Source: Phoenix dactylifera
Lineage: Eukaryota; Streptophyta; Magnoliopsida; Arecales; Arecaceae
Assembly (NCBI RefSeq): GCF_009389715.1
Contig: NC_052405.1
Coordinates: 15,754,194-15,818,193 of the forward strand
Length of the DNA stretch: 64,000 nucleotides
Direction: 5' to 3'
Positions 3,210 through 57,980 of the stretch are shown piece by piece. Within the stretch, counting starts at the first letter, position 1; every line of letters begins with the position of its first letter. Below the pieces are notes generated by a model, which was not told the origin of the DNA, did no database searches, and saw nothing but the letters and a program-made list of their open reading frames with translations. The position numbers were made by a program, and so were the translations under genes.

Positions 3210-3316
3210 CTTTTCCCGCTGTCCGGCCTGGCCCGGCCGAGATCCTCCACGAGATTGCCGTTGAGGCGATCTCTGATGGATCTCTTGCGCCCCGCCTCAA
3301 TCCGGTCCGCGTACAT
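3210..3316 (-). CDS. First coding exon of an unidentified conserved plant gene (partial)
   Basis: On the minus strand an ATG at 3316-3314 opens a 107-base exon (35 codons plus 2 bases) beginning MYADRIEAGRKRSIRDRLNG and ending GKR, followed by a splice donor (AAAAG|GTCTCC) at 3210/3209. Upstream to 3501 is a typical plant leader: CT-rich, with an AAACCCTA motif and a 16-C run. The basic, charged start (MYADR...KRS) resembles, from memory, the start of a conserved plant protein of unknown function that also ends its first exon near GKR. I cannot name it. The frame is open further upstream with no other ATG, so this start is preferred. No later exon is visible; the gene probably runs off the left edge. 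The MULE at 3502 separates this exon and leader from their TATA box near 10472. Confidence 0.5.
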
Positions 3317-3434
3317 CTCGGCTTCGTCCCCTGCGACGTCGAGAAGTCCGTGTGGCAACGCCGGGGCCCAGAGAATAGCAGACCTAGGGTTTAGAGAGAG
3401 CGGAAGAGAAGCGGAATTCGATAGGGTTCAGAGA

Positions 3435-3450
3435 GGGGGGGGGGGGGGGG
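3435..3450. repeat. 16-base G run in the leader of the gene at 3316
   Basis: A mononucleotide tract (poly-C on the transcribed strand) inside the inferred 5'UTR. It is likely to vary in length and to be error-prone in sequencing. Confidence 0.7.
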
Positions 3451-3492
3451 TTGTGTGGGTTAGAACTTAGAAGGGGCGACGACGAGAGATAC

Positions 3493-3501
3493 TGGAGATG
3501 G
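3493..3501. repeat. Left 9-bp target site duplication of the MULE (TGGAGATGG)
   Basis: TGGAGATGG directly precedes the left inverted repeat and is repeated exactly at 10422-10430, directly after the right one. A 9-bp duplication is characteristic of Mutator-superfamily insertion. Confidence 0.9.
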
Positions 3502-3550
3502 GGGTGGTTCTATATACACCCCGCCTATTGCTCAGGACACCCCCCAAAAA
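3502..3550 (+). repeat. Left terminal inverted repeat of the MULE
   Basis: Forty-nine bases pairing with 10373-10421 in reverse complement, with mismatches only at a G/C and a C/A position. A related motif (ACACCCCCCATTTGCTAAGG) recurs just inside at about 3575, so the terminal motif is partly repeated in tandem on this side. Confidence 0.9.
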
Positions 3551-4007
3551 TTAAAAAAAAATTAAATACTCTCTACACCCCCCATTTGCTAAGGACACCC
3601 CTAAAAAATTAAAAATTCCTAAATTACCCCCCACCCTCCCCACCCCCTCACCTAAATTGCTCTCTACACCCCCCAAACCCCCCCCCCCCCCACCCCGCTC
3701 TTCCCCTCCAAAACACCCGCCGGCTTCTCCCTTCCGCCCAAAAAACCTCGCCTCAAGCACCTCGCCGGCGGCCAAACCCCCTCCGTCTCCCTTTGAACTG
3801 TTCCGCCCAAAGCACCTCGGCAACGCCCAAAACCCCCCCGTTCCCCCTTCTCCCTCTCGTCGCCGGCATTCTCCCGATCTCCGACCACCTCGCCGGCTTC
3901 TCCCGGAACCACCTCCCCAGCCATCTCCCGAGCAACGAGCACCTCGCCGGCGCCTCCACGACCACCTCGAGGTAGCTCCCCCCCCCCCCGCCGGCATTTT
4001 TTTTTTT

Positions 4008-4300
4008 CACGGTTCGTGCTCCGTTCGGCACTGGATCGCCGAACAAAAGGCTTCTGTTCGGCTGAACAGTGCCGAACAGAAGCCTTCTGTTCGGCAACCC
4101 TCAACCGAACAGAAGCCTTCTGTTCGGCTGCACAGTGCCGAACAGAAGGCTTCTGTCCGGCACTGTGCAGCCGAACAGAAGGGTTCTGTCCGGCTCTGTG
4201 CAGCCGAACAGAAGCCTTTTGTTCGGCACTGTGCAGCCGAACAGAAGGCTTCTGGTGCCAAATCGCGTGCCGTGCTGAATTTTGTGCCGAACAGATCCTC
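4008..4300 (+). repeat. Left subterminal hairpin array of the MULE
   Basis: About seven tandem palindromes of the form GCCGAACAGAAG-CC/GG-CTTCTGTTCGGC, each able to fold into a hairpin with arms of about 12 bp, separated by spacers such as TGCACAGT or ACTGTGCA that partly pair with each other. The repeat period is roughly 33 bp. The whole array is present in inverted orientation at 9831-10090, where one unit (about 33 bp) is missing. The array is open in several frames on both strands; I read these ORFs as a by-product of the repeat, not as genes. Subterminal repeats are known transposase-binding regions in several DNA transposons; that role here is inference. Confidence 0.85.
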
Positions 4301-4368
4301 TCATTTATGTATGCAATTGAATTATTTTCTTTGATATAGCCTAACATTGAATTTCTATATTTTCAGAC

Positions 4369-6283
4369 ATGGATCCCGGTCCCTTCAGAGTTAGACCTAC
4401 GGCGTCAGCTAGGAGACGTCGTGCTAGGATTGCTTCTCCCGAGCCTGCTCATATGCCATCGCCCTCTCCTGAGTCAGAGCATGATGATATGCCCGCTAGG
4501 GGCGAAGACGATGAGTCTGTTGGACCATGTCCAGGAGGTCCAGAGGATGAGTCCGTCCTGATCAGTTTTAGGACGCATATAGCAGCTTCCATCTGGAGGC
4601 AACAGGTATTGTTTATTTGTTATAGCATTATATTTTGTTTATTGATGTTTTATAAAGTAGTAGTAATTATACATTTATATTACAGGAACGGGCTCCACTA
4701 AAGTGCATGAACCATACTGCCAAGGTTGGTGAATGGAAGTGGTGGTCTTCAAACCAACCAAATACCAGGTTCAAAGCACTATTGAGGCAGTCGGGCCTCA
4801 TAGAGTTAGTACAGTGCTCTTATCGATTCACCGATAAGATTCTGATTTCGGGCTTCGTAGAGAGATGGCAGCCCGAGACGAACACCTTCCATATACCATT
4901 TGGCGAGATCACTATCACGTTGGATAATGTATCCGCCATTTTAGGAATTCCTGTCGCAGGTGCCTCAGTAGCAGTTTCTCCTGAGAGGATGAGTGATCGG
5001 GATGCTGAGGAGCTACTTGTGGAGTTGTTGGGGGTGTCAGCTGGAGACGCGCGTCAGGAGGTACTGTCATCGCGCGGTCAGTCTGTGAGGATGGAGTGGC
5101 TGAGGACTCAGTTTCACTCTGTATCTGATAGAGACGGCCAGCAGAGGATAGAGTGTGCAGCACGAGCCTGTTTGTTATTTTTGTTAGGCTGCACACTCTT
5201 TGCTGATAAGAGTGGGACCAGGGTGCCTATAGCGTATCTGTGTTTACTGCGGGATCTGGATAGGGTGAGCACATATGCCTGGGGTACAGCTGCCTTAGCA
5301 TATTTGTATCGGCAGTTGGGGATTGCGTCGAGGTCATCAGTGAGACAGATCAGTGGTTATATGACGCTTCTGCAGGCATGGATTTATGAGCATTTTCCAG
5401 CACTCAGTCCTCACCCGTCGCTTGAGTATACTGATGCCAGTCTCCGCGTGCACCGCTGGATGCCCGGTACTCCATCCCGTACCACGATGGACCATTTAGT
5501 GGTTCTACGTGAGTCATTGGACCTTTTGAGCATCGATGAGGTACGTATCATATTACCATTTGCTTGTGTTTGTCAGTACTTTTAATATGCGATATAGTAT
5601 AAAACTGAAATGGACCTTTTGTTTTGCAGGTTATTTGGGATCCCCATCATCGGCTTCGGGGAGATCGCCCATATGTTGATATCGCATTTTTTAGTGGCTC
5701 CATCAAGTGCCTTGATATCGTAGAACCCTATCATCCAGAAAGGGTTCTTAGACAGTTTGGTCGTATTCAGACCATCCCTCGAGCGCCACTAGCCCCTACG
5801 CGAGCCAACAGAGGTTCCACAGCAGGCTCGTACCGGATACATTACTCCTATATGGATCAGCTTTGGGAGCGGTGGGAGGACCACGTGCTGAGCCAGGCGA
5901 GCAGGAGCCACCCAGTTACCCGGCCATCAGACAGCGTACCGGGATACATGGAGTGGTATCTCCGTATCACGCACGTTGCAGTTCAGCCTCCTCATCTGCG
6001 CTCGAGTACTCATTCTGGAGATAGGGGAGGTCATGATGATGCTGACATGCACCAGCGGCGTATTGCAGATGCACTCGGTATCAGTACCGACATTGTACGG
6101 ATGGGTCCCTCAGAGGCTACGTCACTAGGTGCCGGGCACCTATTTCATGCTATTTGTCAGATGCATCAGTTACTTCTGGGTGATGAGCCTGGCCCGAGTA
6201 CAGCACCCTCTCATTCGGATCCAGCACCCTCTCATTCGGACGTACAGCAGTACACGCGTCGACGACGGCGTCATAGGGATTGA
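4369..6283 (+). CDS. Plant mobile domain (PMD, MAIN-like) protein of the MULE
   Basis: Three exons with phase-0 GT-AG junctions: 4369-4605, 4686-5540 and 5630-6283, giving 581 aa with no internal stop. Residues 1-79 are acidic and Arg/Pro/Ser-rich. The core from about residue 95 is a plant mobile domain (aminotransferase-like PMD), seen in blocks such as VERWQPETNTFHIPFGEITI and the following ILGIPVAG. The C-terminus is a Ser/Pro-rich tail ending in a basic RRRRRHRD. PMD proteins such as Arabidopsis MAIN and MAIL1 act in the nucleus in gene expression and transposon silencing, and PMD genes also occur inside transposons. An acceptor (TTTTCAG) at 4366, three bases before the ATG, suggests a 5'UTR intron, possibly from about 3972, that would contain the hairpin array. 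The gene converges on the transposase gene. Its role in transposition or in escape from silencing is inference. Confidence 0.85.
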
Positions 6284-6521
6284 TGATGGAGCCTTTATTT
6301 TGATATTAATGAAAAATATATATTTTTGGTACATTTACGTGTAATTTTTGTAAAGCCTGGCCCGTTCTATTTTACACAAATATAACAGTGCACATAACAA
6401 TCAATCTAACAATGCGAAGACAGATATTTTTTTATTTATATTGATGATGGAGTTTCACAGTACATGACTCTAAGAGCCCAAAAAAATTTACAACTTTCAA
6501 AAATTGTACATATATAAACAA

Positions 6522-9500
6522 TCAATCTAACTCTACTGTCTCGCTAATTATAACATTAGGTGAGATGCTCTCTTTGAACTGTTGAATCCGGGCTTCATAT
6601 GAATTTTCCCATCCGGTAGCACAAGGAAGATGATATTTTCGCCAGTTGGTCGCTACTGGCGGAACGGGATGTCCCGGCAACAAGAACACCTTCAAAATTA
6701 GAAATAAGAAAATATTAATAGCTACAAAATTATAAATAAGCAAAATTAAATAAGCAAAATTAAATATTCGCAAGTGTTGTGAACATAGTACCTCAACAAA
6801 ATGATTTCCATTTACGAATCCGATAGCGATATCTTTGCGGGATAGAATAGGTACTGGTACAGAACGGAGAGGTAGGAAGGTCAGACATTGTTGCAACGAG
6901 AGATGGTATAGGACAACATTATAGCAGGATGCTATAAGATGACCCATGTCCGGCATAGTCATCCATCTGTCATATGGTGGACAATCATCATAATATGATA
7001 ATGCATGAGTGATCTCAGCAATCGTCCCTTCCACACCATATAATGTGCGATAGTGGTCCGAATGACATTGCAACTCTTGCAATAAATCCTTCCTAACACG
7101 CACCCAGTCATCTTCTCCAAATCCCAGTAAGTCAGCTATTGCCCTAAATCCGCAATTCCCATCAGCTTTTACATCCTTGATATGCTGGATGTATGGTCTC
7201 AAGGCAGAACGAATAGCATCAATATAGATAATGGGCGTATGTGACTGGGCTCTAGTACGAAAAACCTGTAAATAATATCAAATGATAGAAAATATGTAAC
7301 AATGGCAGAAATATCCAAATAGTTATCCGTCTCAGCACATCCCGTACCGGCACGGCACGGCACGTCCCGACATGTCCCGTATCGGCACATCTCGGCACGG
7401 CACGTACCGATATGTCCCGTATCGGCACATCTCGGTACGGCACATCCCGTATCGGCACATCTCGGCACGGTACGTCCCGACATGTCCCGTATCGGCACAT
7501 CTCGGCACGGCACGTCCCGACATGTCCCGTATCGGCACATCTCGGCACGGCACGTCCCGACATGTCCCGTATCGGCACATCACATACCGGCACGGCACGG
7601 ACCGTCCCATAGACGTTGTGATACCTATTGTAAGGAAATAAATATTTGGTACTTACCTTTTGCTTGGGCCGCCTCTTTTGAATCTGAGTAGATGGATTGC
7701 GGATGGTAACTTTCTCAACACCAGGTGAATAACTATCCTGTCCAGATAGAACCAACTCAAACGCAGACGGGTCACGTCGAGTAGACGTATCAACCTTCAT
7801 TGAAGCGCGCCCACGTGAACCGGTCTTCCGTTTTGCAGGCTCCAAAAGAGGTATACTATCTGGACTTGCAATCTCTCGTAACTTCTTGATCATCTGCAAT
7901 TGAGAAGCCCCATCTAACTTCTTGAATCGTAGCGCAATCAAATCTAACTCTGCATCACAACTCAACTGAATTGGCTGCATGGGGGGGGTAGGCAGAATAT
8001 CAAGTTTCCTCCAATGAGGATCTATGCAGTCGAGAGGAATGGGCCGACCTTCCACCCTGTACCGCGCAATCTGGTGAGCACATGGTATACCATGTGTGCG
8101 TCGAATAGCGCACCCACAATTTGAATCATCAAACCCAACTGAATTGGCTCGTTTCGATTGGGCGAGGACATGATTTAACGCACTTATAGATATGAAACCT
8201 CGCAACTCTTTGAATTCAGCTGGCTTGAAGTTGTGCTGCACTACCAATAAACTCTTCTCCAATGAGGCTTTAACGGAGCTGTGCTGCAACTCAATCAATC
8301 CATGTATTCTAGTCCAAGATGACTCGAAACTTCCTTGGCTTGATCCAAGCTGCTTTTTGAGCTTTGCATGTGCACTCTCGACCCTAGTAAACAAATGAAA
8401 GTTAGATATAACAATTGAGGCAAATTAAAATTAAATGAGTCTTTATTTGTGATACCTATTTGTCGTCACATTTCCGTAGTGCCTGCATGTATCCGTCCAC
8501 GCCGCAACAAATCTTTCCTTGTATTTGCTCAGCCAAGTATCTGACACATACTGTAGTGCATCTGGATAGGTACCGAACTCTCTCTGCAGTGCACTCCAGC
8601 GATCATTATACTCGTCTTCCGTGGAGGACAGCACTAGTACATTCCAACTCATAATAAATTTATCCCATTTCTCCTTCAATTCGAAATTTTTTTTGCACTT
8701 GGCCAAAACATTCCTACTAATATGCCATCTACATAATAAATGTCTAGCAGTAGGAAATACTCTATGAATTGCATTCATCAAAGCCAAGTCTCTATCTGTA
8801 ACAATCAACTCAGGCAAAACATCATCAGCTATGACACTGCGCAATCTCTCTAATGCCCAAGTATAGCTTTCTTCCCGCTCAGAATTTAAGTATACAAAAG
8901 CAATTGAAAATGTCATGTCAGTAGATGTCACCCCCACAATCTCTAAGAGCGGAAGACGATACCTATTCGTCTTGTACGTGCAATCCATTATCAACACACG
9001 AGGAAATGCACGGAACAAATCAATGCTGCCAGGGTGTGCCCAAAATAAGTCATGCACAATATCCGTATTAGTACAATTCCTATGCCACTCAATATATTTA
9101 GCCTCTGATAATTTACCTAATAGATGTTGCATTTCAGACCTCCCGGCTTTCTCTACAACCTTAAACCGTTGACGTACATTGTAGATAGTCTTGATAGTCG
9201 TAACATTGAGGGCATCTCTTTCCTTCAATGTGGATAATATGTCCTTTGGACGAACCAAACTCTTCGACATATCCACTAACAATTCCGTCTCCTGCTCAGA
9301 TAATCTCCCTGCATATGAGTGCCCCTCCAGATTCTCTGCAGCGGGATGATTGTGCACTCCACATACGACCAGTAATATCCAATCATCCGCAGTATCCAAT
9401 TTCTTTCCTCTTAATGCAAAAGGGCATCCACACTTCTTTGTCCCACAGGCAGTCTTTATTCGCTTTTCTTTTTTGGTTCGGTACGTCCCACCCCTCTCAC

Positions 9501-10172
9501 AACCTAACGTAATTCTGGGTTTCTTAGAAATGGTACCTGCATCGGATGATTTGATTACAACAACAAAACCATTTCGCCTCCCAGCTTCACGACACCAATT
9601 ACACAAGTCCTCTCTACTCTTGAAGATCTATACATTAAACAATTTATGTAAGTACACAGTTGTAAAAATAGCTCGCTAAACTAATACAAAATTGCACAAT
9701 ACATTATAATACCTCGTAAGTTGTAAATTCGCTTGTGTAATCCAGTACAAATTCTGATCCAATTATACTCGATTCGGTTGTAGCATAGCCCTACATATAA
9801 AATAATTTATCACCAAGAATTAATGAATCAGAGGATCTGTTCGGCACAAAATTCAGCACGGCACGCGATTTGGCACCAGAAGCCTTCTGTTCGGCTGCAC
9901 AGTGCCGAACAAAAGGCTTCTGTTCGGCTGCACAGAGCCGGACAGAACCCTTCTGTTCGGCACTGTGCAGCCGAACAGAAGGCTTCTGTTCGATTGAGGG
10001 TTGCCGAACAGAAGGCTTTTGTTCGGCACTGTTCAGCCGAACAGAAGCCTTTTGTTCGGCGATCCAGTGCCGAACGGAGCACGAACCGTGAAAAAAAAAA
10101 AATTTCGAAACAAGGTGGAACACGTACCTTTGCGGCCGATTCTTCGTCCCAAATCACTAGTTGCTTGTCCAT
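6522..10172 (-). CDS. MULE transposase with C-terminal OTU protease domain
   Basis: Six exons on the minus strand: 10172-10128, 9790-9713, 9627-8456, 8383-7657, 7265-6792 and 6689-6522. All introns are GT-AG and the frame stays open, giving about 887 aa. Exon 1 (15 codons from ATG) is the least certain. In order: FAR1/WRKY-GCM1-type zinc finger (about residues 42-140, with CGTKKCGCPF and HNH); DDE transposase core with D256 (LIMDCTYK), D319 (IVTDRD), the CRWH motif, and E434 (NRVESAH, codon run formed across the exon 3/4 splice); SWIM zinc finger (CGCAIRRTHGIPCAH, about 521-535); then an OTU cysteine protease domain with DGNC (Cys about 712) and NGNHFVEV (His about 829). Such OTU tails are known in some plant MULEs, where they could act as deubiquitinases; that activity is inferred. 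Intron 1 contains the right hairpin array and intron 4 a 40-bp minisatellite. The last intron (102 nt) has no stop, so retention would add 34 aa. Confidence 0.88.
7330..7606. repeat. 40-bp minisatellite in intron 4 of the transposase gene
   Basis: About six tandem copies of a 40-bp unit built from four related 10-mers (CACGTCCCGA, CATGTCCCGT, ATCGGCACAT, CTCGGCACGG), with one copy shortened to 30 bp at 7441-7470. It fills most of the 391-nt intron 7266-7656. Read on the minus strand from the preceding exon it stays open to a stop at 7252-7254, so intron retention would replace the OTU domain by a Cys/Arg/Asp-rich repeat tail. Confidence 0.85.
9831..10090 (-). repeat. Right subterminal hairpin array of the MULE
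   Basis: Inverted, near-identical counterpart of 4008-4300 with about six hairpin units and one unit fewer. It lies wholly inside the first intron (9791-10127) of the transposase gene. The high identity between the two arrays shows they are maintained as part of one element or were copied recently. Confidence 0.85.
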
Positions 10173-10372
10173 GCTTCGAATGGGGCTTAAATCTCCTTCA
10201 AAGATCGCCTAAACGATGTAAATGGATCGAGGGGTTTAAGGGGGGGTTTGAGGGGTGTTTTTTTTTTTTCTTTTCAAAACGAAACGGAGGAGGAGGAAGG
10301 GGGGTGTACTAAGAAAATTTCAAGGGCAATATGGTAATTACACTAAAGGTTAGTTTGGGTATTTTTTTTTGG

Positions 10373-10421
10373 TTTTTGGGGGGTGTCCTTAGCAATAGGG
10401 GGGGTGTATATAGAACCACCC
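10373..10421 (-). repeat. Right terminal inverted repeat of the MULE
   Basis: Reverse complement of 3502-3550 with two mismatches, followed immediately by the right copy of the 9-bp duplication. Confidence 0.9.
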
Positions 10422-10430
10422 TGGAGATGG
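10422..10430. repeat. Right 9-bp target site duplication of the MULE (TGGAGATGG)
   Basis: Exact repeat of 3493-3501. Removing the MULE and one copy restores a continuous minus-strand promoter, leader and first exon. Confidence 0.9.
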
Positions 10431-31664: not shown

Positions 31665-31746
31665 GTCGCTTTGGCCGAGTGGTTAAGGCGTGTGCCTGCT
31701 AAGTACATGGGGTTTCCCCGCGAGAGTTCGAATCTCTCAGGCGACG
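31665..31746 (+). tRNA. tRNA-Ser (anticodon GCU)
   Basis: An 82-base cloverleaf. The acceptor stem GTCGCTT pairs with AGGCGAC plus discriminator G; the A box is TGGCCGAGTGG; the anticodon stem TGTGC/GTACA encloses CTGCTAA with anticodon GCT; the long variable arm GGGGTTTCCCC marks a class II serine tRNA; the T arm GAGAG-TTCGAAT-CTCTC is the B box. No intron. T-runs from 31752 on supply a Pol III terminator. It reads AGC/AGU codons in cytosolic translation. All stems are intact, so it is probably functional. Confidence 0.96.
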
Positions 31747-31747
31747 T

Positions 31748-32284
31748 TATTTCTCTTTTTTTTGTTTTTAATATTTTTTCTTTTTTTTTTACATCTTTCT
31801 TGAAGTGGTTTTTTTTACTCCCTTAAGGGAAAGGTTTCCATTGATGGAGAATTCTTTAATTTTTTCCCGAGTGTGGGCATGATAGATTTCAGAATGTTGT
31901 TTGTCGGTAATTTTAAATGTTGGTATTTCTCTTTATTTTGTTTTTATTTTTTTCTTTTTTTAAATCTTTCTTGAAGTGGGTTTTTTTTTTTTTTTACTCC
32001 CTTAAGGGAAAGATTTCCATTGATGGAGAATTTTTTTAATTTTTTTTTCCCCCAAGTGTGAGCATGATAGATTTCAGAATGTTGCTTGTCGGTAATTTTA
32101 AATGTCGATATTTCTCTTTATTTTGTTTTTAATTTTTTTTCTTTTTTTAAATCTTTCTTGAAGTGGGATTTTTTTTTACCCCCTCAAGGGAAAGGTTTCC
32201 ATTGATGGAGAATTTTTTATTTTTTTTTCCCGAGTGTGAGCATGATGGATTTCAGAATGTTGTTTGTCGGTATTTTTAAATGTT
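31748..32284 (+). repeat. Three tandem copies of a roughly 180-bp repeat directly after the tRNA
   Basis: Copies start at about 31748, 31924 and 32109 (periods 176 and 185). Each runs TATTTCTCTTT, a T-rich tract, CATCTTTCTTGAAGTGG or close variant, a T-run, TTTCCATTGATGGAGAAT, GATAGATTTCAGAATGTTG or close variant, then GTCGGTA. Weaker partial copies continue at about 32.29-32.4 kb and 33.0-33.2 kb. The first copy begins at the tRNA 3' end, so its T-runs double as the Pol III terminator. Confidence 0.8.
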
Positions 32285-34225
32285 GAAATTTTTAATATTT
32301 TTCTTTCATGAGGTGAAATGCAACTTTTTTCTTTTGATGGAATTTTTCTTTTTTTAATTTGATTTTCTTTTTCATTTTTTCCACTCTGAAAGTGATAGAT
32401 TCCTTTGTTATTTGACTGTATTTTTTCTGCATTGGAGACGAGGAAATCATTCAGTTTCTCTCATAAATAATAAAAAAAATATTGGCTCTCAAATTATGAG
32501 CATACCAAGATAAGAAGCAATATTATGATAAACTTTGTGAATTAAATCTTAGAAGAAAAAAAAGTTCATTGCAACCATCATTAGGAAGTTCATTTTCATT
32601 AATAGCATTACTAGAATCAAACATGCTATCTCAATGGCTCTAGAACTTCGAACTTTTGGTTCTTAAATAGAAGAACATGAATATTGTTGGATTCTTGAGA
32701 TTAGGATACTCTAATTAGGAGGAGGTGGAGGGCGAGAGCAGGAGATATGGGTGAAGCTTGAAAAATTGTAGAAAAAAATGAAGAGCCAAAGAGAAAAAAA
32801 TGAAGAGCCAAAGAGATCTTTATTTTTTAAATAGCTATGAACATTTGATTGATATGGGCCAAGCAAGACTTGATATGCTTTATATCGAAAAATCCAAATT
32901 TCATAGAGATTATCCAAAATATAAAAGAATAACCAAAATTCGAGCAAAGTTGCGTTACTTTGGCAATAGAAAAGACACCTAATTTATTACTTCTACTTTC
33001 CTAGAGCGAAACGTAACTTTTCTTTTTAATGGAGATTTTTTATTCAAAAAAAAATCCTTTCTTTTTTCCTAACCAAACAGGATAGGCTTTGTACGTTACT
33101 TGTCAGATTTTTTTAACATTAAAAATTTTACTTATTTTTCTTTTTTATCTTTCATGAATTGAAATTTTTTCTTTGATGGAGATGAGCAATGTTACTGCAG
33201 TAAAATTTATGAAATAAATCTTTGTAAAAAAGTTTCATCAAAACCACCAATAAGACATCCATTTTAGGAGAGCTTGAAGGCCTTGGTTTCTATAAGTTTA
33301 TTCATAGCATTGCTAGACTTAAACATACTATCTCAATAGTCTTCTGGCCACTATAGAACTTAAAACTTTGGGTCCCTAAACAGAGGGATATGATTATTTG
33401 GACAAGTCCCAAAGAAGTCCTTAGAAAAAATTCTAATTCTATTGGGATTATCCAAATAGGTCCTCAGGAAAAAAAAAAAGAAAAGCTCAAACAAAGTTGC
33501 ATTACCTTGGAAATAGAAAAAAGATAGTCAATCTAAATTTTTGAGAAAGACATTTAACCAATACATAAAAGCAGAGTCATGCTAAGGGTGGAACCACACC
33601 CTTGAGCATTACATATATAGAAGATATCATCAAGGGTGTAATGGAAGCAAAACATAGAGAATGACATCTTGTCTGCCAATGTAAGTCTTTGCTAAAACTA
33701 CATTTGCCTAGTTGAGTAACTTAAATTGAACTTTGAGTTCAGTTCAAGTATCCCTAAACCATCACTAGCACCAGTAACTGTAAGTTGACCTGTAGTTGTT
33801 TTGGCTGCCAGCTGGGTACAACATCTGGGCTGCCCACTAAAGCTTAAAAAAAAAAAAGCCAACACTACAAAAACACATTTTGTTACATGGAAGAAGCACC
33901 TAAGGGAGAAATTCACAAGATAACCATAATCATAATCATTTAGCCTTTTCCAAATTATTTAAAGTTAGCATAGAGATATTTATAAAATATAAATGTACCG
34001 GTTGTATCTTTCATATGAAAGAAGGATTCACTTTCTCTCACACAAATCTACCACTACTTTTGAGCTCTATACAGGGAGGGATGAATGAGCAAGTTTGGAG
34101 TATTTTGAGATCTATGCAGGACACGATCCCATAACTGATGCTGCTAAAGAAGATCAATCTTCCTTTCATGCGAATGAAATAATCCAAATCCAATAAAAAA
34201 ATGCTAAATTTGGAAACAAATAGTG
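32285..34225. other. Intergenic stretch
   Basis: T-rich and AT-rich DNA with decayed pieces of the preceding tandem repeat. I see no gene; short ORFs here resemble nothing. Confidence 0.5.
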
Positions 34226-35095: not shown

Positions 35096-35157
35096 ATTTC
35101 TAGATAAACCTATGGCCTTCAATCAGGTTACTGTCTCTATTCTGTAACCCTGATCCT

Positions 35158-38100
35158 ATGGCCTCAAACACTAGTGACCACCTTAGTGCCAAACCTGAAA
35201 AATTTGATGGTCATAACTTTAGGAGGTGGCAGAACCAAATGCGGTTATGGCTCACCACATTAGGGTTAATCTCAGCCATAGGTGAAAGTACTACCGAAGT
35301 TGATAACAGGTCCAACCCAACTACCTCTACCAACACTGAACATTCTGCCTCCACTAGCACATCCTCTAGGACACCTGATGAGATAGATTATCATTGTATC
35401 CATAGAATCCTAGATGCTCTTTCTGAGAGGCTGTACGATATCTATTACACAGCCAAGAGTGCTAAAGAACTCTGGGACACCTTAAATAGCAAATATGGTC
35501 TTGATAATGCTGGGGTAAAGAGGTTCAAGGCCTCCGACTTCAATAATTTTAGGATGGTGGACTCAAAGCCTATGAATGACCATATCCATGATTTTGAAAC
35601 CCTGATCCACCAGCTTAGGGCTAATGGAACAAATTTGGATGAATCATTTCAGGTAGCCTGTCTGATAAATAAACTACATACTTCCTGGTCTGATTTTGCT
35701 AAGACCCTGAGCCATACCCAGGGAGTTCTCACCCTAACCCAAGTCTTGAACTCCATTAAGATTGAAGAGCAGCACAGGCTCAGGAGTAATACCACTACTA
35801 GACCCAAGAATAATGCATATAATGTAGAGGCCCCTCCTAAGAAAAATCAGAACAGACCCTTCCGTAAGAATTTCAAAAAGAAACCCTACAACCCTAGAAA
35901 CCCTAACCACCACTACAATGGAAAGCTTATTCAATCCCAGTAGCAGAAGAAGAAGAAAGAGGAAGGTGGTGCTCGTTTCTGTTATGTGTGTGGTCGGACC
36001 AACCATTTGTCTCCCCAGTGCTTCTATAAGAAGACTGCACCTCTTCAATCTAAGAAGAAGGGTCCACACACATCTAGTGCTCAAGTCAACATAGTGACTT
36101 CTGGCGGTGGCTCCTTTGAAACAGCTTTCAGGTTTGTTTCCTTCACTCCTGAAGTTAACATGACTTTACAAGCACTTGATTGGTGGATTGATACCAGAGC
36201 TGGTATTCATATTTGTTCGGATCGCTCTTGGTTTTCTTCTTACCAGATCTCAAGTGGAGGAGCTGTGATAATGGCAAACAACTCGGAGGCGCATGTTCTA
36301 GGAGTAGGACGTGTGGACTTAAAGCTTACCTCTGGCAAAGTCCTGTCCCTGCACGGCGTCCAACATGTTTCAGTTGTTAGGAGAAATCTCATTAGTGGTT
36401 CCTTGCTTGTCCAGCAAGGCTTTTGTCTAGTTTTTGAGTCCAATAAGGTTGTGATTTCTCATGGTGTAATATTTATTGAAAAAGGATTCCTTAGTGAAGG
36501 ATTGTTTAAGTTGAATGAAATAGCTCCTTCAATAAATGAAAATATTTTGATTATGAATATAGAACCCCCTTCTATTTGGCATGGTAGATTAGGTCATGTA
36601 AATTATAATTCAATTAAGCAACTTATGAACCTAAATCTAATACCAAAAAGTGATCTTAAGAACCATGAAAAATGTCAAATTTGTGTAGAAGCCAAACTCC
36701 CTAGGAAGCATTTTAAATCCGTTAATAGGGATTCAGATCTATTAGAGTTGATCCATAGTGATGTTTGTGACTCTGGTAGAACTTCTAGGGGAGGTAACAG
36801 ATACTTTGTGACATTCATAGATGATCTATCCAAGTTCTGTTACATCTACCTAATTAAAACCCAGGATGAGGTCCTCAGCAAATTTAAAATTTTTAAGATC
36901 GAAGCTGAGAACCAACAGGAAAAGAAAATTAAAATCCTTAGATCAGATCGGGGAGGTGAATATACATCTAATGAGATAACTCAATTTTGTGAAGATTATG
37001 GAATCATTCATGAAGTGACTGCTCTATATTCTCCCCAATCAAATGGAGTAGCAGAAAGGAAGAATAGGACTCTAATGGATATGGTGAACTCCATGCTTAT
37101 AAGCTCAGGAGTGCTAGAGAATTTGTGGGGGGAAGCTCTAGTTTCAGCATGTTATATCCTTAATAGGATTCTCTCTAAAAATAATAATTTGACCCCATAT
37201 GAAGTTTGAAAACATAGAAAACCTAATCTTAGCTATTTGAAAGTGTGGGGGTGCTTGGCAAAAGTGAAAATACCTGGTTTTAAAAGAAAGAAAATAGGAC
37301 CTAAAATAGTGGATGCTATATTCATAGGTTATGCAACCAATAGTAATGCCAATAGATTTCTGGTGATTAATTCAGAAGAAAGTGATATTAGTAACAACAC
37401 CATCATAGAAGCCAGAGATGCAATATATTTTGAAGACACCTTTCCACTTAAGACTAGAGTAGATAGTGGTATAGCTAGTAGCTTTAGTAGAATAAAGACA
37501 AGTGAAGTAGAAGTAGAAGCAGAACCTAGAAGGAGTAAGAGATCTAGGGTAGAGAAAACATTTGGAGATGACTTTTATACTTTTCTTATAGAGGACTCTC
37601 CAACTACCTTTGAGGACGCAATGAAATCCTTGGATTTTCCTTTTTGGAGAGAAGCTGTGGATAATGAGATGCAATCAATTATCCAAAATCATACTTGGGA
37701 ATTGACTGATCTTACTCCTGGTTGTAAAACTATAGGGTGCAAATGGATCTTTAAGAAGAAACTTAGGCCTGATGGCTCTGTAGATAAATTTAAGGCTAGA
37801 TTAGTTGCCAAGGATTTTACTAAAAGACCCGGGGTAGATTTCTTTGATGTTTATGTACCTGTAGCTAGGATTACTACTATTAGGGTCCTTATAGCATTAG
37901 CCTCTATTCATAGATTAGTGATTCATCAGATGGATGTTAAGACAGCTTTTCTAAATGGAGACTTAAATGAAGAAATTTATATGGACCAGCCAGAGGGATT
38001 TAAAACCCCAGGCTAAGAAAATAAAGTTTGCAGACTAGTCAGATCTCTTTATGGTCTTAAACAAGCACCCAAGCAATGGCACTTGAAATTTGATGAAACC

Positions 38101-39135
38101 ATACTGGCATTTGGATTTGAAATCAATAGTACAGACGAATGTGTATACCACAAGAGAGTTGGACACAAATTTGTGATCTTGTGCCTCTATGTAGATGATA
38201 TACTGATCTTTGGGACAGATCTTCAGATAATTGATGAAGTAAAACAATTTTTAAGTCATAAGTTTGATATGAAAGACTTGGGACAAGCTGACTTAATTTT
38301 AAATACCAAAATAATTAGAAGTGCAAATAGTATTGAGTTATCCCAAAGTCATTATGTTGACAAGATACTCAATAAATTTAATTATTCTGATTGTCAGCCT
38401 GTCTCTACTCCATTTGATCCCTCTACTCATCTTAAGAAGAACTTAGGAACTCCTGTCCTTCAAAACCTATATGCTCAAATCATAGGCTCACTAGGATTCC
38501 TAATAAACTACACCAGGCCAGACATAGCATATGTTGTAAATAGACTTAGTAGATATATTATTAATCCAAATAGAGATCACTGGACAACATTAGAGAGGAT
38601 CCTCAGGTATCTTAAGGGTACCAAGTCCTATAGTTTGCACTTTAGTGGGTTTCCTGCTGTTCTAGCAGGCTATAGTGATGCCAACTGGATCAGCGATACC
38701 CTAGATGTTAAATCTACCACAGGATACGTCTTTCTCCTAGGAGGTGCTGCTGTGTCTTGGAAATCCATCAAACAAACCTTAATATCTAGGAGTACCATGG
38801 AGTCTGAACTGATAGCTTTAGACACCACTAGCACTGAGGCTGAGTGGCTCCGAGATCTACTAATAGACCTTTCTGTAGATGAGTCACCTTTACCACCTGT
38901 CTCCTTATATTGTGATTGTAAATCTGCAATAGATAAATGCAACCAAGAAAATGCTAATGTAAAAATGAACAGGCACTTAAAAGTACGTTATAAATCATTA
39001 AGATATAAATTGAAAAATGATGTTATTGCCTTAAATTTTGTAAAATCAGAAAACAATTTGGCTGATCAGCTTACAAAAAGTTTATCCAGAACAGTGGTTC
39101 TAGAGTCGTCGAGGGGGATGGGGCTTCGCCCATAA
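35158..39135 (+). pseudogene. copia-1 gag-pol, inactivated by three stop codons
   Basis: One continuous reading frame of 1,326 codons from ATG 35158 to TAA 39133, interrupted by TAG at 35941, TGA at 37207 and TAA at 38014, with no frameshift. Order: UBN2-type gag (about 35158-35900); CCHC zinc knuckle CYVCGRTNHLSPQC (35980-36021); protease WWIDTRAGIHIC, where the expected active-site D(T/S)GA reads DTRA; GAG-pre-integrase zinc region (HGRLGHVNY...CQIC); integrase with HSDVCD, RSDRGGEY and GVAERKNR; reverse transcriptase with YVDDIL; and RNase H (GYSDANW) ending in [10 protein letters not shown]. It could not make Gag-Pol for its own transposition. Confidence 0.92.
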
Positions 39136-44094: not shown

Positions 44095-44311
44095 GCTACT
44101 ATGGGAGATAAGCGGTGTGATGAATGAGATCTTAAAAATTGAAAAATTTGATGGGCAGGGTCCATCGCTGATGTGGTTCACCTGACATCAAGGGCATAAT
44201 GTCCCCGTTCACCGGCCAGCGTCAGCCCTATAAATTTCGTTTCATTTGAAGCGTACATATGCCGTTAGAAAGCCGGCAAGCTTTTTGTCATTTGAAAAGT
44301 GAGAGCAACGG

Positions 44312-46354
44312 ATGCTCTCAGGTGCGCTCTCTCGGCCATCCCTGAAGCACCTCATCTCGACATGCGGAGACCCGCACACTCTCGCCCAAATCCACGCCCT
44401 CATGATCCTCACCGGATCCCTCTCCCACCCCCAATCCCCTGGTCGCTTGATAGCAGCCTACGCCAGACTCGGAGACATCGCCGCCGCCCAGTCCGTGTTC
44501 AAAACCACCTCCTTTCCCAACGTCTCCACCTGGAACGCTCTTATCATCGCCCAATCCCGGCACAACTCCCCGGCCGAAGTCCTCCGCCTCTACCACCTCA
44601 TGCTCTCTGATGGCCGCGTCCGGCCGGATAGCTCCACCTTCACTGTGGCCCTCAAAGCCTGTGCCCAGTTATTGAACCTCGAAACCGCCGAGGAGATTAA
44701 AAGCCATGCTTTTGTTTCAGGATATGAGCATGATGTGTTTGTTTGCTCCTCATTGTTGAATTTGTATGTGAAATGTGGGAAGATGGATGAGGCAATGAAG
44801 CTTTTTGATGAAATGCCGAAGAGGGACATCGTCTCGTGGACTACAATGATTACAGGTTTTGTGAACGTTGGAAGGCCATTAAAGGCAATTGGGGTCTATA
44901 GAAAGATGCAGGCAGAGAGTATGGAAGGGGATGAGATTGTGATGGTCGGCCTGATTCAAGCGTGTGTGGCGGTGGGAGATGTGCGGATGGGTCGTTCCAT
45001 TCATGGTCACATGGTCAGATGTTGCATGAAGATGGATGTCGTTATGGAGACTAGCCTTGTCAACATGTACGCCAAGAATGGGTCCTTGGAGCTTGCACAT
45101 CTCATCTTCGAGCAGATGCCCTGTAAGAATGTTGTGTCTTGGAGTGCTTTGATTTCAGGATATGCTCAAAATGGGCTTGCAAGTGATGCACTACAGATGC
45201 TGGTTAAGATGCAAGAATGTGGTCTGCAGCCCGACTCGGTTGCACTCGTGAGTGCTCTTCTGGCATGTTCACAGATTGGGTTTTTGAAATTGGGCAAGAC
45301 AATACATGGGTACATTGAGAAGAGGCTTGAATTTGACAGGATTTTGGGCACCGCAGTGATTGACATGTACTCAAAGTGTGGGTGCCTCTCAAGTGCTCAT
45401 TCCTTGTTTTCCAGGGTTAGGTTGAGAGACTCAATATCTTGGAATGCGATGATAGCTAGCTATGGTGCCCATGGTCGTGGTAAGGAAGCCCTTTCAATTT
45501 TTCTTCAAATGAGTGAAACTGGATTGGAGCCTGACCATGCCACTTTTGCTTCACTTTTATCGGCTTTTAGTCATTCGGGTCTTGTGGAAGAAGGACGCTA
45601 TTGGTTTGATCTCATGCTACAGAAGTTTGGAATTGAGCCTGCTGAGAAGCATTATGCTTGTATGGTGGATCTTTTGGCTCGTGCAGGTCATGTTGAAGAA
45701 GCCCATGAACTCATCAAGTCAATGGTTATCAAGCCAGGGATTGCAGTCTGGGTTGCTCTCCTCTCCGGCTGTCACAAACATAAAAAGTTGGAGCTTGGAG
45801 AATATGTGGCAGGAAAGGTTCTTGAGTTAAATCCAGATGATTTAGGGATACATGCCTTGGTTTCTAATGTTTATGCTGCAGGAAAGAAGTGGGATAAAGT
45901 AGTTGAGGAAAGAAAGGCAATGAAGAAGATGGGGATGAGGAAGGTTCCAGGCTATAGCTTGGTGGAAGTGAATGGGAAACTTCATGCATTCTTAGTGGAG
46001 GATAAGACTCATCCACAATATGAGAAGATCATGGAGATGTTGGAGAGATTGGATTATGAGATGAGGAAACTGGGTTACATTCCAAAGACAGAGTTTGTGT
46101 TCCATGACCTTGAGGAGGATGTGAAGGAGAGAATACTCTGTAACCATAGTGAGAGGCTGGCCATAGCCTTTGGGCTGTTGAACACAAGCCCGGGAACAAG
46201 GATTGTGATCATAAAGAACCTAAGGGTTTGTCTGGACTGCCATGATGCGACCAAGTACTTTTCAAAAATTGTAAACCGGGAGATTGTAGTAAGGGATGTG
46301 AAACGATTCCATCATTTTAAAGATGGAGTGTGCTCTTGTGGGGATTACTGGTAA
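44312..46354 (+). CDS. Pentatricopeptide repeat protein, PLS-DYW class
   Basis: Single-exon gene of 680 codons. After a short N-terminus, PLS-type PPR repeats run to about residue 520, seen as recurring [20 protein letters not shown] and [18 protein letters not shown] units. E and E+ regions follow ([10 protein letters not shown]...), then a complete DYW domain from about residue 586 with HSE (about 612-614), CLDC (about 640-643) and terminal CSCGDYW. DYW is a zinc-dependent cytidine deaminase domain; proteins of this class edit specific C to U sites in mitochondrial or plastid transcripts. The HxE and CxxC residues are present, so deaminase activity is plausible. The target site and organelle cannot be read from sequence. 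The chosen ATG gives a short basic-hydrophobic start that could be a transit peptide. The TRIM ends 217 bp upstream. Confidence 0.94.
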
Positions 46355-52124: not shown

Positions 52125-54015
52125 AAAGGTCCAAGAGTTGTGACCAATCTCCGGAAACTCTCACGCGTGATCGTGTGACGAAGCGTGGCTCTCCGTTCGG
52201 AGGCGTATAGAGATGCGTGCTCTGATAGATATACATGGGTGTCACCCTATTTTTAATAGGACCGAACCCATGTAGGAGTGGAGACTCCCCCATTTTCAGT
52301 GGTATCAGAGCCAGGTTTATGTTTAAACTTTTATGTTTTAAGTCTTGCAATTAAATCTGAAAACATTAACATATTTAGATTAGATCTAAAGTGCTTTTTA
52401 TGATTGATTTAATTGCTGATTATGCATGATTAAGTAGATCTGAAATTTTGGATGTATATGATGCATGTTTGTGTTAGGATTAGTAACATGAATAAATCTA
52501 AAATCATATTTAGATTAGATCTAAATAAAGTTCATGATTCATATGATCTCTGATTTTAATGAACAAATCAGATATGAAATAAAAGTGAAAAAATAAATAC
52601 ATAAGATGTATGTTGTTTGTATTAATTCATGTTGTTATGTATATGTGATGCATGAACATAAAACATAATGACTTAAACATGAATTAAATCTGATTACATG
52701 TGATTAATTACAAAAACTCAGATCTGAAAATGTGTTTTAAGAACTGAAAGATTGAAATTAATATGTAATTAAAAAGAAATATGCAATGATCAAAATTTTC
52801 ATAAGTCTAAACTTAATTAAGAATTAAGTGTTATGAAATAGAATTGTAACTCAATTAATTGACATTGCATAATTCTTTGGGCATATGGGTTAGCTTGAAT
52901 CAAGTTCTTAGGATTGGGTTAGACCTAAGGATAGAATCATCCATTGACTAATAGAATTAATTGATCAAATTTAAATAAGTAGTAACTAGATTAGGTCAAG
53001 AAAATTCTAGGTCAATTTACAATAGTTGTAGATAGATCAAGTCCATGTCTTTGATTAGACCAAGATGGAACTTGATTTAAGCTCAGTGGTGTAGCCCGAG
53101 TCATTTGAGTAATCAAATCGAAATTGATTAACTAGTCGGTGTCTAAGGTAAGTTTGGCAGACTCGACCAATGGTTTTTAATTGGGAGCTACTCGTACTGA
53201 TTCGTCTTTGTCGAGTTAATGGCATATCCCTTCCACCGATCTCACTTACCTGGCCGACATGGTCAATCACATTTTGATTGGATCACTTAATGATTCGAGT
53301 AAGCCCATGCCTTAAGAAAAATCAGTATGACTGATTTAGGTGTCTCCTTAACCGGTTTCAGTCTAATCTGATTTGGTGAAATCAGTGGAAGAAATTAGAC
53401 TAACCGGATCTTCTCATCTATCCTAATTATGAAATCCTCTAAAATTATTAGGTCCTTAAAATGAAATGGTTATGGGGATAACTAGGTCATAGCCTCCCAT
53501 TAAGTTGGGTGATAATGGGTCCAATGTTTTGATAATTATTGGAAGCGCCACACGCCTGGTACTTATCAAGCATTGGAATTGTCATTCAATATATGATGAG
53601 TTAAGTGTACCTTCAATAGGCGGTCAGGTGAGCTGAGCCACACTCGGGCTTGGTCGTCCATTAGTTGATTAGACTTAACCCTATCATTTAATAGTTGGAC
53701 CTGACTAGGGTATTCGGTGGAGGCGCCACACGTCTGCCGAAAAACCTAGGGCAAAATTATCACTAGAAGTTGCTTGGTGAAGCAATTGGTTTAGAACCTA
53801 CCAATAGGTGCATATGGGTTGGCCGAGCCACACTCGGGCCTATATGCGATCTATTGGGTTCTAGTGGCCACTAAAGAATTAGGAGTAATTTTTCGAATTA
53901 GAGGTAGAGACTACCAATTTGTATAAAATAGTGGGAGTACCTTTAGACTAAAGTCCAAGTCTATTGAGTTTAATCAATTCATATACTAATAGCCAAATTT
54001 TCTTTTTATGCAGAA
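52125..54015 (+). other. copia-2 untranslated leader
   Basis: 1.9-kb leader with no long ORF. It includes a second copy of the LTR-end/primer-site junction (52295-52312) and an imperfect tandem duplication (about 53541-53880) with the marker blocks GCGCCACACG and GAGCCACACTCGGGC. Confidence 0.7.
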
Positions 54016-57000
54016 ATGGCCACTAATTTGTCACTTCGCTCATTGTTGGACAATGACAAGTTGACTGGTCCAAATTTCAATAATTGGCATAGAAAACTGA
54101 AAATAGTGCTAGAGCATGAGAGGATCCTTTATGTGATAACGGATCAAGCACCTGAGCAGCCTGCTGCTAATGCATCAAGATCGGCTAGAGACACTTATCA
54201 GAAGTGGCTTAGTGACCGGATCACTGTTCGATGCATCATGTTGGCAGCAATGAGTGATGAGTTTAGTAGGCGTTTTGAGAATACGCAGCCGGAAGATATT
54301 ATTCAAGTGTTGAATGAATCATTCAGCGTTCCTGACGATGTTGAGAGGCACAAAACTAGTTGTGCCATCTTCAGCGCCCGAATGAAAGATGGAACCTCGG
54401 TAACTGATCATGTACTGTACATGATTGAGTTGATCGAGCGTCTAAGCTCTCTTGGCTTTTCCCTTCATGATCAATTGGGGAAGGATGCCATACTAAACTC
54501 ATTGTCTGGATCATACTGTCCTTTTCTCACACATTTTCGTATGACGAAACCTGTAGTGAATTATCACCAATTGTTGGGGTTACTACAGACGTTTGAGAAT
54601 GATCACCAGCTTCTTAAGAAGATGGTGAACTTAGTGGGAGGTTCATCTAAGGGTCGCCCCTTTAAGAAAGGAAAAAAGAAAAATAAAATCCAAAAGAAAC
54701 AGGTGCACCATGCTCAGCCTAGTCAGAAAAAGAATAAAAAGGCTGATCAGAGAAAGGCGGAGTGCTTCTTCTGCAAGAAGGAAGGACATTGGAAGAGGAA
54801 CTGTCCTCTTTACATTGCATCCCTCGATCCGAACCGGCCTAAGAAAAGTGGGCAATCAGTTGCCAATCAAGGTACTTATATGATAACACCTTGCAATTTT
54901 TCTATTTGTGATAATTCGACCTGGATATTGGATACCGGTAGTCCTTTTAATATTTGCAATTCGTTGCAGGGGCTACAAGTCAGTAAGAGGTTTGAAGAAG
55001 GAGAAAGGTTTCTGAATGTTGGAGATGGAAGACCAGTTCCAGTTCTAGTTTTAGAAATTCTTAAACTTGAATTCAGCTCTCATGTAAATATCCTTAGTGA
55101 TTGTCACTATTGTCCAAGTTTTCTATTGAATATCATTTCTGTAGGCCTTTTGGCCAAAAATGGTTATGAAATATCAATAAAAAAGGATTATTGCAATGTC
55201 ATTTAGAATGGTGTTGTTGTAATGAATGGAATTCTGAGTAATGGCATTTACATTTTGTCACAGCCTGTTCATGTAATATATAAATCCAATAAGCGCCCTA
55301 GAATAGATAATGTCACAGATGTCTACCTTTGGCATCATAGGCTAGGTCATATTAACAAGAACAGGATGAACAGGTTAAGTAAAGAGGGAATCCTCGATGT
55401 TAATGATTGTGAATCATGGACAACCTATGAATCATGCCTTCTTGGAAAAATGACCAAATCACCTTTTACCGGAAAAGGTGAACGAGCCAGTGATTTATCG
55501 ACCCTTGTACATTCTGATATATGTGGGCCAATGAGTACAAATGCTAGAGATGGATATTCATATTTCATTACGTTTACAGACGACTTTTCCAGGTATGGTT
55601 ATGTCTATTTAATGAGACATAAATCTGAATCATTTGAAATGTTCAAATTATGTCGTAATGAAGTAGAAAAACAAACTGGAAAGAGTATTAAAACTTTTCG
55701 ATCAGATCGAGGAGGTGAATACCTCTCCAGTGAGTTTTTGACATATCTAGGAGAGAATGGAATTCTCTCCCAATGGACTCCTCTTGGTACACCACAGTAT
55801 AATGGTGTGTCAGAAAGGAGAAATCGAACTCTGTTATACATGGTTCGATCCATGATGGGGTTTGCTAATCTGCCTATATCCTTTTGGGGATATGCTCTTA
55901 AGTCAGCCTGCTATATTCTAAATAAGGTTCCAAGTAAGTCTGTAAATAAAACACCACATGAGATGTGGACTTGACGTAAGCCGATGCTCTCTCACCTCAG
56001 GGTTTGGGGGTGTCCGACGTATGTCAAACGTTTGAAGAGAGACAAACTTGAACCCAAGTCCGACAAATGTTTCTTTGTTGGTTACCCTAAAGAAACTAGA
56101 GGATATTACTTCTACTTTGCTGAAGAACAAAAGTTGTTCGTAAGCAATAGAGCAATTTTCTTAGAGAAAGAATTCCTTGGTGAAGGAACAAATAGCTCTA
56201 ATGTTGAGTTTAGAGAAGTTCAACATGTAGAAGATCCGACACCATCTACTGAACCAGTTGAGTCGGATTTGATTAGATCAGATCCAGAACCCATATTAGA
56301 TGCACCATTAAGGCGATCGGGTAGAGTACCACGTCAGCCGGACAGATACTACGATTTTTTGGTCCGAGACGAGGATCCTATCGAACTTGATGAAAACGAT
56401 GAGGATCCGATCACATATATGGATGCAATGCAGAGGTAGGACTCTGATAAATGGCTTGGAGCCATGCAATCCGAAATGGAATCCATGAAGGTCAATGATG
56501 TTTGGACATTAGTTGACACACCCGAAGGAATTAAACCCATAGGGTGTAAGTGGATATTCAAAAGAAAACGGGGCGCAGACGGAAAGGTAGAGACCTATAA
56601 AGCCCGTCTGGTTACCAAGAGTTATCGTCAACGTTATGGTATTGACTATGACGAGACGTTTTCTCCTGTGGCAATGCTCAAGTTCATACGGATTGTGCTT
56701 GCGATAGCAGCACATTTAGACTATGAAATCTGGCAAATGGATGTAAAGACCGCATTTCTAAATGGAGATTTAGAAGAGGAAGTATATATGATACAACCTG
56801 AAGGTTTTACATCTATAGATGAGTCTAAAGTGTGCAAGCTTCAAAAATCCATTTATGGATTAAAGCAAGCTTCACGGAGTTGGGATATACGTTTTGATAA
56901 GGTAATCAAAACATATGGCTTCATTAAGAATGAAGAGGAACCATGCATTTATAAATGGGTAAATGGTGCAGTTATTATATTTCTTATTTTGTATATGGAT

Positions 57001-57980
57001 GACATTCTTTTAATCGGGAATGACATTCCTGCATTACAAGGAATAAAGGTTTGGCTATCATCTCAATTTGCCATGAAGGATTTGGGAGAAGCATCTTACA
57101 TCGTAGGGATGAAGATCTATAGAGATAGATCTAGAAGATTGCTTGGATTATCCCAATCCACATACATTGATACTATACTGAAGAGGTTCAGTATGATTAA
57201 TTCCAAAAAAAGGCTATCTTCCGATGGGCCATGGAATTAACCTCTCTAAAAGAGATTGTCCGACAACTCCTCAAGAAAAGAGAGAGTATGGATAGAATTC
57301 CATATGCTTCGGCAATGGGATCTATAATGTATGCCATGACATGTACTAGACCAGACGTGGCATACTCGCTAGGAGTAGTGAGCAGATACCAGTCTGATCC
57401 AGGTATCAACCACTGGAAGGTTGTAAAAACCATCCTTAAGTATTTGAGAAATACTAAAGACCAGTGGCTTGTCTACGGTGATTCTGACTTAAAACTTGAA
57501 GGATATACCGATTCAAGTTTTCAGTCAGATCAAGATGATAGCAAGAGCATGTCGGGATATATCTTCACTCTTAAGGGTGGGGCCATCTGCTGGAAGAGTT
57601 CCAAGCAGCATATAGTGGCAGATTCTACATGTGAAGCAGAATATATCGCAGCATCTGATGCCGCCAAAGAAGCTGTATGGTTGCGGAAGTTCATCATCGA
57701 GCTTGGAGTGACACCCTCCATTGATGGTCCAGTGCCTGTATTTTGTGACAATACTGGGGCCATAACTCAAGCAAGAGAACCCAAAGCACATCAGCGGACC
57801 AAGCATATTCTACGTCGCTACCACCTGGTTCGAGAGATCGTCGATCGAGGTGATATTGATCTTCAGAAGATTGACACAAAAGAAAATCTGGCCGACCCAT
57901 TTACCAAAGTCCTCGGCATCAAAGAGTTCGACGAACACAAGTCGAAGATGGGTATTAGATACTGTGACGATTGGCATTAG
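54016..57980 (+). pseudogene. copia-2 gag-pol, inactivated by three stops and one frameshift
   Basis: The frame opens at ATG 54016. Gag is followed by a CCHC knuckle CFFCKKEGHWKRNC (about 54769-54810) and protease WILDTGSPFNIC, active-site DTGS intact. TAG at 55204, TGA at 55972 and TAG at 56437 interrupt the frame. Between them lie the HHCC zinc region (WHHRLGHIN...C...C), integrase (HSDICG, RSDRGGEY, GVSERRNR), and reverse transcriptase with LYMDDIL near 56990-57010. A run of seven A at 57205-57211 shifts the frame; the frame resumes one phase over and runs through RNase H (GYTDSSF, CEAEYIA, VFCDNTGAI) to the stop at 57978-57980. It cannot make a complete polyprotein; the young LTRs suggest it was mobilised in trans or decayed quickly. 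Confidence 0.92.

Follow-up and report, generated by a model that had tools for sequence, protein, structure and literature searches.

VANDAL elements are Mutator-like elements (MULEs) that are poor in terminal inverted repeats (TIRs). In VANDAL21 and VANDAL6 of Arabidopsis, the transposase is accompanied by a second protein, VANC, which counters silencing in a sequence-specific manner, and tandem arrays lie within introns and other noncoding DNA (PMC5735166). PMD-C MULEs of grasses and Amborella have instead captured a plant mobile domain (PMD) as a fusion to the transposase, and a possible use of the captured domain against silencing was proposed in 2017 (Ikeda 2017, PMC5418596). The counter-silencing idea was later repeated with VANC21 and PMD named side by side (PMC8616336), eudicot PMD-C was described as mainly genic (PMC7156037), and an unpublished VANC21 structure has been mentioned (PMC8756742). 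Here, we analyzed a 64,000-nucleotide stretch of Phoenix dactylifera DNA (contig NC_052405.1, positions 15,754,194 to 15,818,193; hereafter the window, in whose numbering coordinates are given) and found that 3502 to 10421 is a complete MULE with two convergent intact genes, one encoding a PMD protein and the other an OTU-tailed transposase. In our view it is as likely as not that the element, young and potentially autonomous, brings along its own anti-silencing gene, namely that of the PMD protein.

The element is bounded by TIRs at 3502 to 3562 (plus strand) and 10361 to 10421 (minus strand) that are 93% complementary over 61 nt, and by a 9-bp target site duplication, TGGAGATGG at 3493 to 3501, copied exactly at 10422 to 10430; its transposase matches the MULE-type domain PF10551 over the full profile (E 3.7e-27). 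The preliminary description of this DNA had reported TIRs, an exact 9-bp duplication and two stop-free convergent genes, all of which were confirmed, and had likened the layout to that of maize MuDR with a PMD gene in place of mudrB, which the gene anatomy bears out. The two elements share convergent genes, TIRs and 9-bp duplications; they differ in the replacement of mudrB and in that the shared 5′ part is here an intronic array and not a long TIR. The PMD gene, modeled from open frames and splice consensus on the plus strand, has coding exons at 4369 to 4605 (ATG at 4369), 4686 to 5540 and 5630 to 6283 (with the stop), for a total of 581 amino acids. The product scored far above the curated cut-off for PF10536 (235.4 versus 34.9 bits; E 1.3e-69), the domain also found in the cellular proteins MAIN and MAIL1, from which this PMD differs in being borne by an element. 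Its nearest named match was from Camellia, among the matches listed (protein searches here and below comprise the best 120 matches each).

The PMD protein is best read as a putative VANC-like anti-silencer with candidate target arrays in introns. A relative, P0001, is 55% identical to the window PMD over 79% of its length, and its predicted structure matched the VANC21 fold in the PDB, the matched structure being a DNA-bound anti-silencer; by way of this model we count the accessory protein as having the predicted VANC fold, as in VANDAL21 and VANDAL6. A PDB sequence search with the window PMD gave no match, its profile found only chance-level bromodomain matches, and a viral structure library searched with the PMD model gave no match at E 0.001. 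We did not file the window PMD as a VANC protein because its DUF1985 score was below the curated cut-off (18.9 versus 35.1 bits). The earlier suggestion that an element-borne PMD could act against silencing gains weight from the fold match of P0001.

The preliminary description overlooked an inner inverted pair of arrays built of a 33-bp palindromic tandem unit. The left array (3997 to 4308, plus strand) lies in a probable 5′ untranslated region intron of the PMD gene, with the acceptor at 4366 and a donor that we infer near 3971, and the right array (9823 to 10101, minus strand) lies in transposase intron 1; the first introns of both genes thus probably carry the same array module in the same orientation. 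The two arrays are near-identical (their alignment of 312 columns has 5 mismatches and a single 33-nt gap), and the DNA between them and the element ends is largely unrelated between left and right. Motif CCGAACAGAAG, with at most one mismatch, occurred at 22 sites in the 64-kb window (0.58 expected), all within the two arrays, and the predicted RNA fold of each array was much more stable than those of shuffled sequences (z of −17.9 for the left array and −17.0 for the right). A third tandem repeat, a GC-rich minisatellite in transposase intron 4 (7340 to 7608) with a unit unlike the 33-bp one, holds 10 copies of TCGGCAC; this 7-mer is common to all three intronic arrays, with 20 copies in the element, none of them in exons, and a further 4 elsewhere in the window. 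Shuffled units shared such a 7-mer in 5 to 6% of cases, and the sharing is suggestive only. Tandem motif arrays in noncoding parts of the element, as seen here, are also the VANC-type arrangement. Unlike VANDAL21 and VANDAL6, however, this element has a FAR1-type transposase, an OTU tail and clear TIRs, its second gene is classed as PMD and not DUF1985, and its array is not made of the YAGTATTAY motif.

Under the anti-silencing reading, the FAR1/MULE transposase would bind the ends and move the element, the VANC-like PMD protein would bind the palindromic first-intron arrays and strip silencing marks, and the OTU tail might take ubiquitin off the transposase or chromatin. In this way the two genes, along with those short copies in which an array survives, could remain mobilizable. 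As the array occupies an equivalent position in each gene, a single protein could open the two together. Alternatively, the element PMD could be a decoy that dimerizes with, or competes against, cellular MAIN or MAIL1-PP7L and poisons silencing with no sequence-specific binding to the element. MAIN and MAIL1 do take part in transposon silencing, as interaction partners of one another and of PP7L, and an anti-silencing or counter-silencing use of a transposon-encoded PMD has already been proposed (PMC5418596 and PMC8616336). Such a decoy would nonetheless have no need of VANC-like arrays in both first introns, and the PDB match of the P0001 model is a DNA-bound protein; the DOWN motif, linked to MAIN and MAIL1, was not enriched in the window (10 versus 6.7 expected), a result that bears on that motif only. 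We regard the decoy as unlikely.

Further copies bear on what the arrays do. The window's own assembly (773 Mb, 2391 contigs) was searched with the first 101 bases of the element, and scoring of 40 of 1315 candidates gave at least 43 end matches, at least 40 of them (the window included) at 99 to 100% identity, and hence at least 39 further copies. Twenty of the 39 were fetched whole; all had both ends, and 16 had exact 9-bp duplications. Nineteen of the 20 were short (793 to 1079 bp) and had neither the PMD nor the transposase gene. One array was kept in 16 of these 19, and the other three (L010, L012 and L017) had an internal tandem repeat of another kind, rich in GA. When the 16 array-keeping copies were aligned, pairwise identity was 0.956 to 0.986 in four 50-column blocks that span most of the array, 0.854 in the block with its first part, 0.95 to 1.0 in the outermost blocks and 0.65 to 0.88 in internal blocks beside the array; a recent common founder may explain part of these identities.

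In another explanation, the arrays serve as subterminal binding sites for the transposase, or as intronic enhancers that have nothing to do with the PMD protein, which would then do something else. The arrays are inverted, palindromic and near both ends, and most short copies, which need only cis signals, retain one. Transposition does not require the array, however, since the three short copies that lack it have also spread, two of them bearing exact duplications, and a position just after the 5′ splice site in both genes (with the PMD donor inferred) suits transcription control at least equally well. We consider this explanation somewhat unlikely.

Whether the PMD gene matters to the element at all is a separate issue, for it could be a captured passenger. 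MULEs are known to capture host genes (PMC5418596), and no PMD coding sequence was obtained from 38 other left-end copies, so the gene is not needed in cis; 19 of these were read whole and 19 were probed with 251 bases at the expected position of PMD exon 1, where a gene displaced by indels could be missed. Among the 19 probes, one gave a 24-base match in noncoding DNA beside the array and two met element ends. The preliminary description had held that a regular absence of PMD from copies with the same TIRs would make it a passenger; on paper this is what we found, in 19 of the 20 whole copies, but those same short copies also lack the transposase. All three gene-bearing copies found (the window, L015 and a copy inside L014) have sequence of both genes. 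L015 is full length (6952 bp), with an exact duplication, about 99% identity in coding sequence and the same convergent pair as the window, and it has decayed (a premature stop in PMD; a stop and a frame break in the transposase). The third, at L014:1250-4507, is an internally deleted copy beside a short copy and holds the 5′ parts of both genes. Its array differed from that of the window at 28 of 283 positions; the counts were 0 of 58 and 1 of 80 for the neighboring introns, 12 of 437 for the PMD part and 35 of 409 for the GC-rich leader (3563 to 3996). Turnover is thus quicker in the array than in the genes, a pattern also reported for VANC targets, although the leader comes close to it.

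Comparisons with these two copies gave dN/dS values not significantly below 1, which is compatible with a passenger but carries little weight either way, the copies being young or decaying. Relative to L015, dN/dS was 0.49 for PMD (P 0.11; 11 nonsynonymous and 7 synonymous changes) and 0.96 for the transposase upstream of the frame break (P 0.61; 7 and 2); relative to the L014 copy, it was 0.89 for the PMD part (P 0.54; 9 and 3) and above 1 for the transposase part (P 0.91; 9 and 1). Three observations stand against a passenger: the intact 581-codon PMD frame, the presence of the same two convergent genes in each of the full-length copies, and, in Camellia, a pattern of shared scaffolds and matching PMD and transposase subfamilies. 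We judge a passenger very unlikely.

That pattern was examined in a scaffold-level Camellia sinensis assembly, with equal scaffold size within one species taken as the same scaffold and 10 C. sinensis rows on chromosome-sized contigs left out. The 35 PMD proteins fell on 34 scaffolds and the 61 transposases on 59, and 8 scaffolds were shared, compared with 1.1 to 2.3 expected (P 2e-5 to 3e-3) for assumed genome sizes of 1.5 to 3.1 Gb. Sharing was weak in the first search alone (3 of 30 scaffolds; P 0.02 to 0.12); a third protein search, run to enlarge the sample, gave 5 of 30 when its newly added rows were counted by themselves (P 0.0003 to 0.0075). PMD-transposase pairs shared scaffolds more often than like-with-like pairs (9/2135 versus 3/2425; Fisher P 0.047). 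Over the eight linked pairs, identities among the PMD proteins were correlated with those among the transposases (Mantel r 0.60, P 0.0044; leave-one-out P no higher than 0.025). One pair, P0042/P0267, was discordant (r 0.83 without it), and replacing P0060 with P0049 as the partner of P0161 gave r 0.557 and P 0.0058. Together, these sequence comparisons support a paired PMD and transposase family in Camellia, and the same-scaffold co-occurrence and matched subfamilies lend support to the earlier proposal of a defined two-gene element.

Several points nevertheless weigh against the reading of PMD as a VANC-like anti-silencer. The protein modeled is P0001 rather than the window PMD, sequence profiles did not find VANC21 for PMD, and a common fold does not show common function. 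The array is put forward as the PMD target from its position and repeat form only, and three of the 19 short copies multiplied without one. Pairing in Camellia is on the same scaffold, not proven adjacency, and dN/dS was significantly below 1 in neither gene against either L015 or the L014 copy. Finally, the MAIN and MAIL1 proteins of Arabidopsis share the domain yet promote silencing (PMC5418596).

The transposase gene, on the minus strand, was modeled from open frames and splice sites as six exons: 10128 to 10172 (with the ATG), 9713 to 9790, 8456 to 9627 (a FAR1-like DNA-binding region and the MULE catalytic domain), 7657 to 8383 (including CGC..C.H, a SWIM-like motif), 6792 to 7265 (the OTU protease domain) and 6522 to 6689 (with the stop). 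Among the matches listed its nearest named relative was from Actinidia, and exon 3 found no relative in viral contigs. The tail has the OTU fold, and the predicted catalytic residues are present, a Cys in DGNCGFR (residue 38 of exon 5) and a His in NHFVE (residue 155). We rejected the tail as a novelty special to this element: it is ordinary in this lineage, present in 51 of 53 aligned rows (the window exon and 52 of the best 120 transposase relatives). Among rows with a residue at the position concerned, the Cys is found in 47 of 51 and the His in 49 of 50. Other domains occur among transposase relatives. In Rosaceae, P0125, P0126, P0127, P0130 and P0173 have SET and PF17907 alongside the MULE domain; at about 1150 amino acids (882 for P0173), these look like one conserved host gene. 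A Rosa rugosa PMD relative, P0006, is on a contig of the same size as that of P0126, and the two are possibly a domesticated pair. Actinidia relatives P0121 and P0122 have an FHA domain (PF00498) within the same protein.

Mu-like elements typically insert into 5′ regions. A minus-strand frame with the opening residues MYADRIEAGRKRSIRDRLNG starts at 3316, so that the element sits some 180 bp 5′ of what is probably a host start codon. Scanning 3400 to 3600 for bacterial-type promoters gave no match, which says little for plant DNA. Elsewhere in the window are open-frame pieces of two retroelements (35104 to 39132 and 53974 to 57977; copia type, as judged by eye from translations), a 683-codon open frame at 44303 to 46351 (plus strand; PPR-like by eye), and a tRNA gene (Rfam) at 31665 to 31746, directly before a tandem array of 185-nt units (31748 to 32291).

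PMD capture by MULEs, its proposed anti-silencing use and the OTU tail of this lineage are already known. New here are the separate two-gene form, the predicted VANC-like fold and the candidate target arrays; the open-access literature held no paper found to tie PMD to the VANC fold, and such a link may be in print in subscription papers or preprints, which were outside the search. Tentatively, and with somewhat less than even confidence, we propose that PMD and VANC proteins form one superfamily of DNA-binding chromatin switches, the PMD of this MULE being a sequence-specific anti-silencer of first-intron palindromic arrays, in a VANC-kind system outside VANDALs that is shared at least with Camellia. 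If so, the host silencing factors MAIN and MAIL1 would be relatives of a transposon anti-silencer and probably bind DNA too. A fold in common with a DNA-bound anti-silencer gives PMD proteins, whether of transposons or of the cell, a concrete biochemical hypothesis, and the element offers reagents for testing it, an intact PMD gene and defined candidate target arrays. Should the PMD protein bind and demethylate them, a second MULE lineage would have evolved, or kept, sequence-specific anti-silencing.

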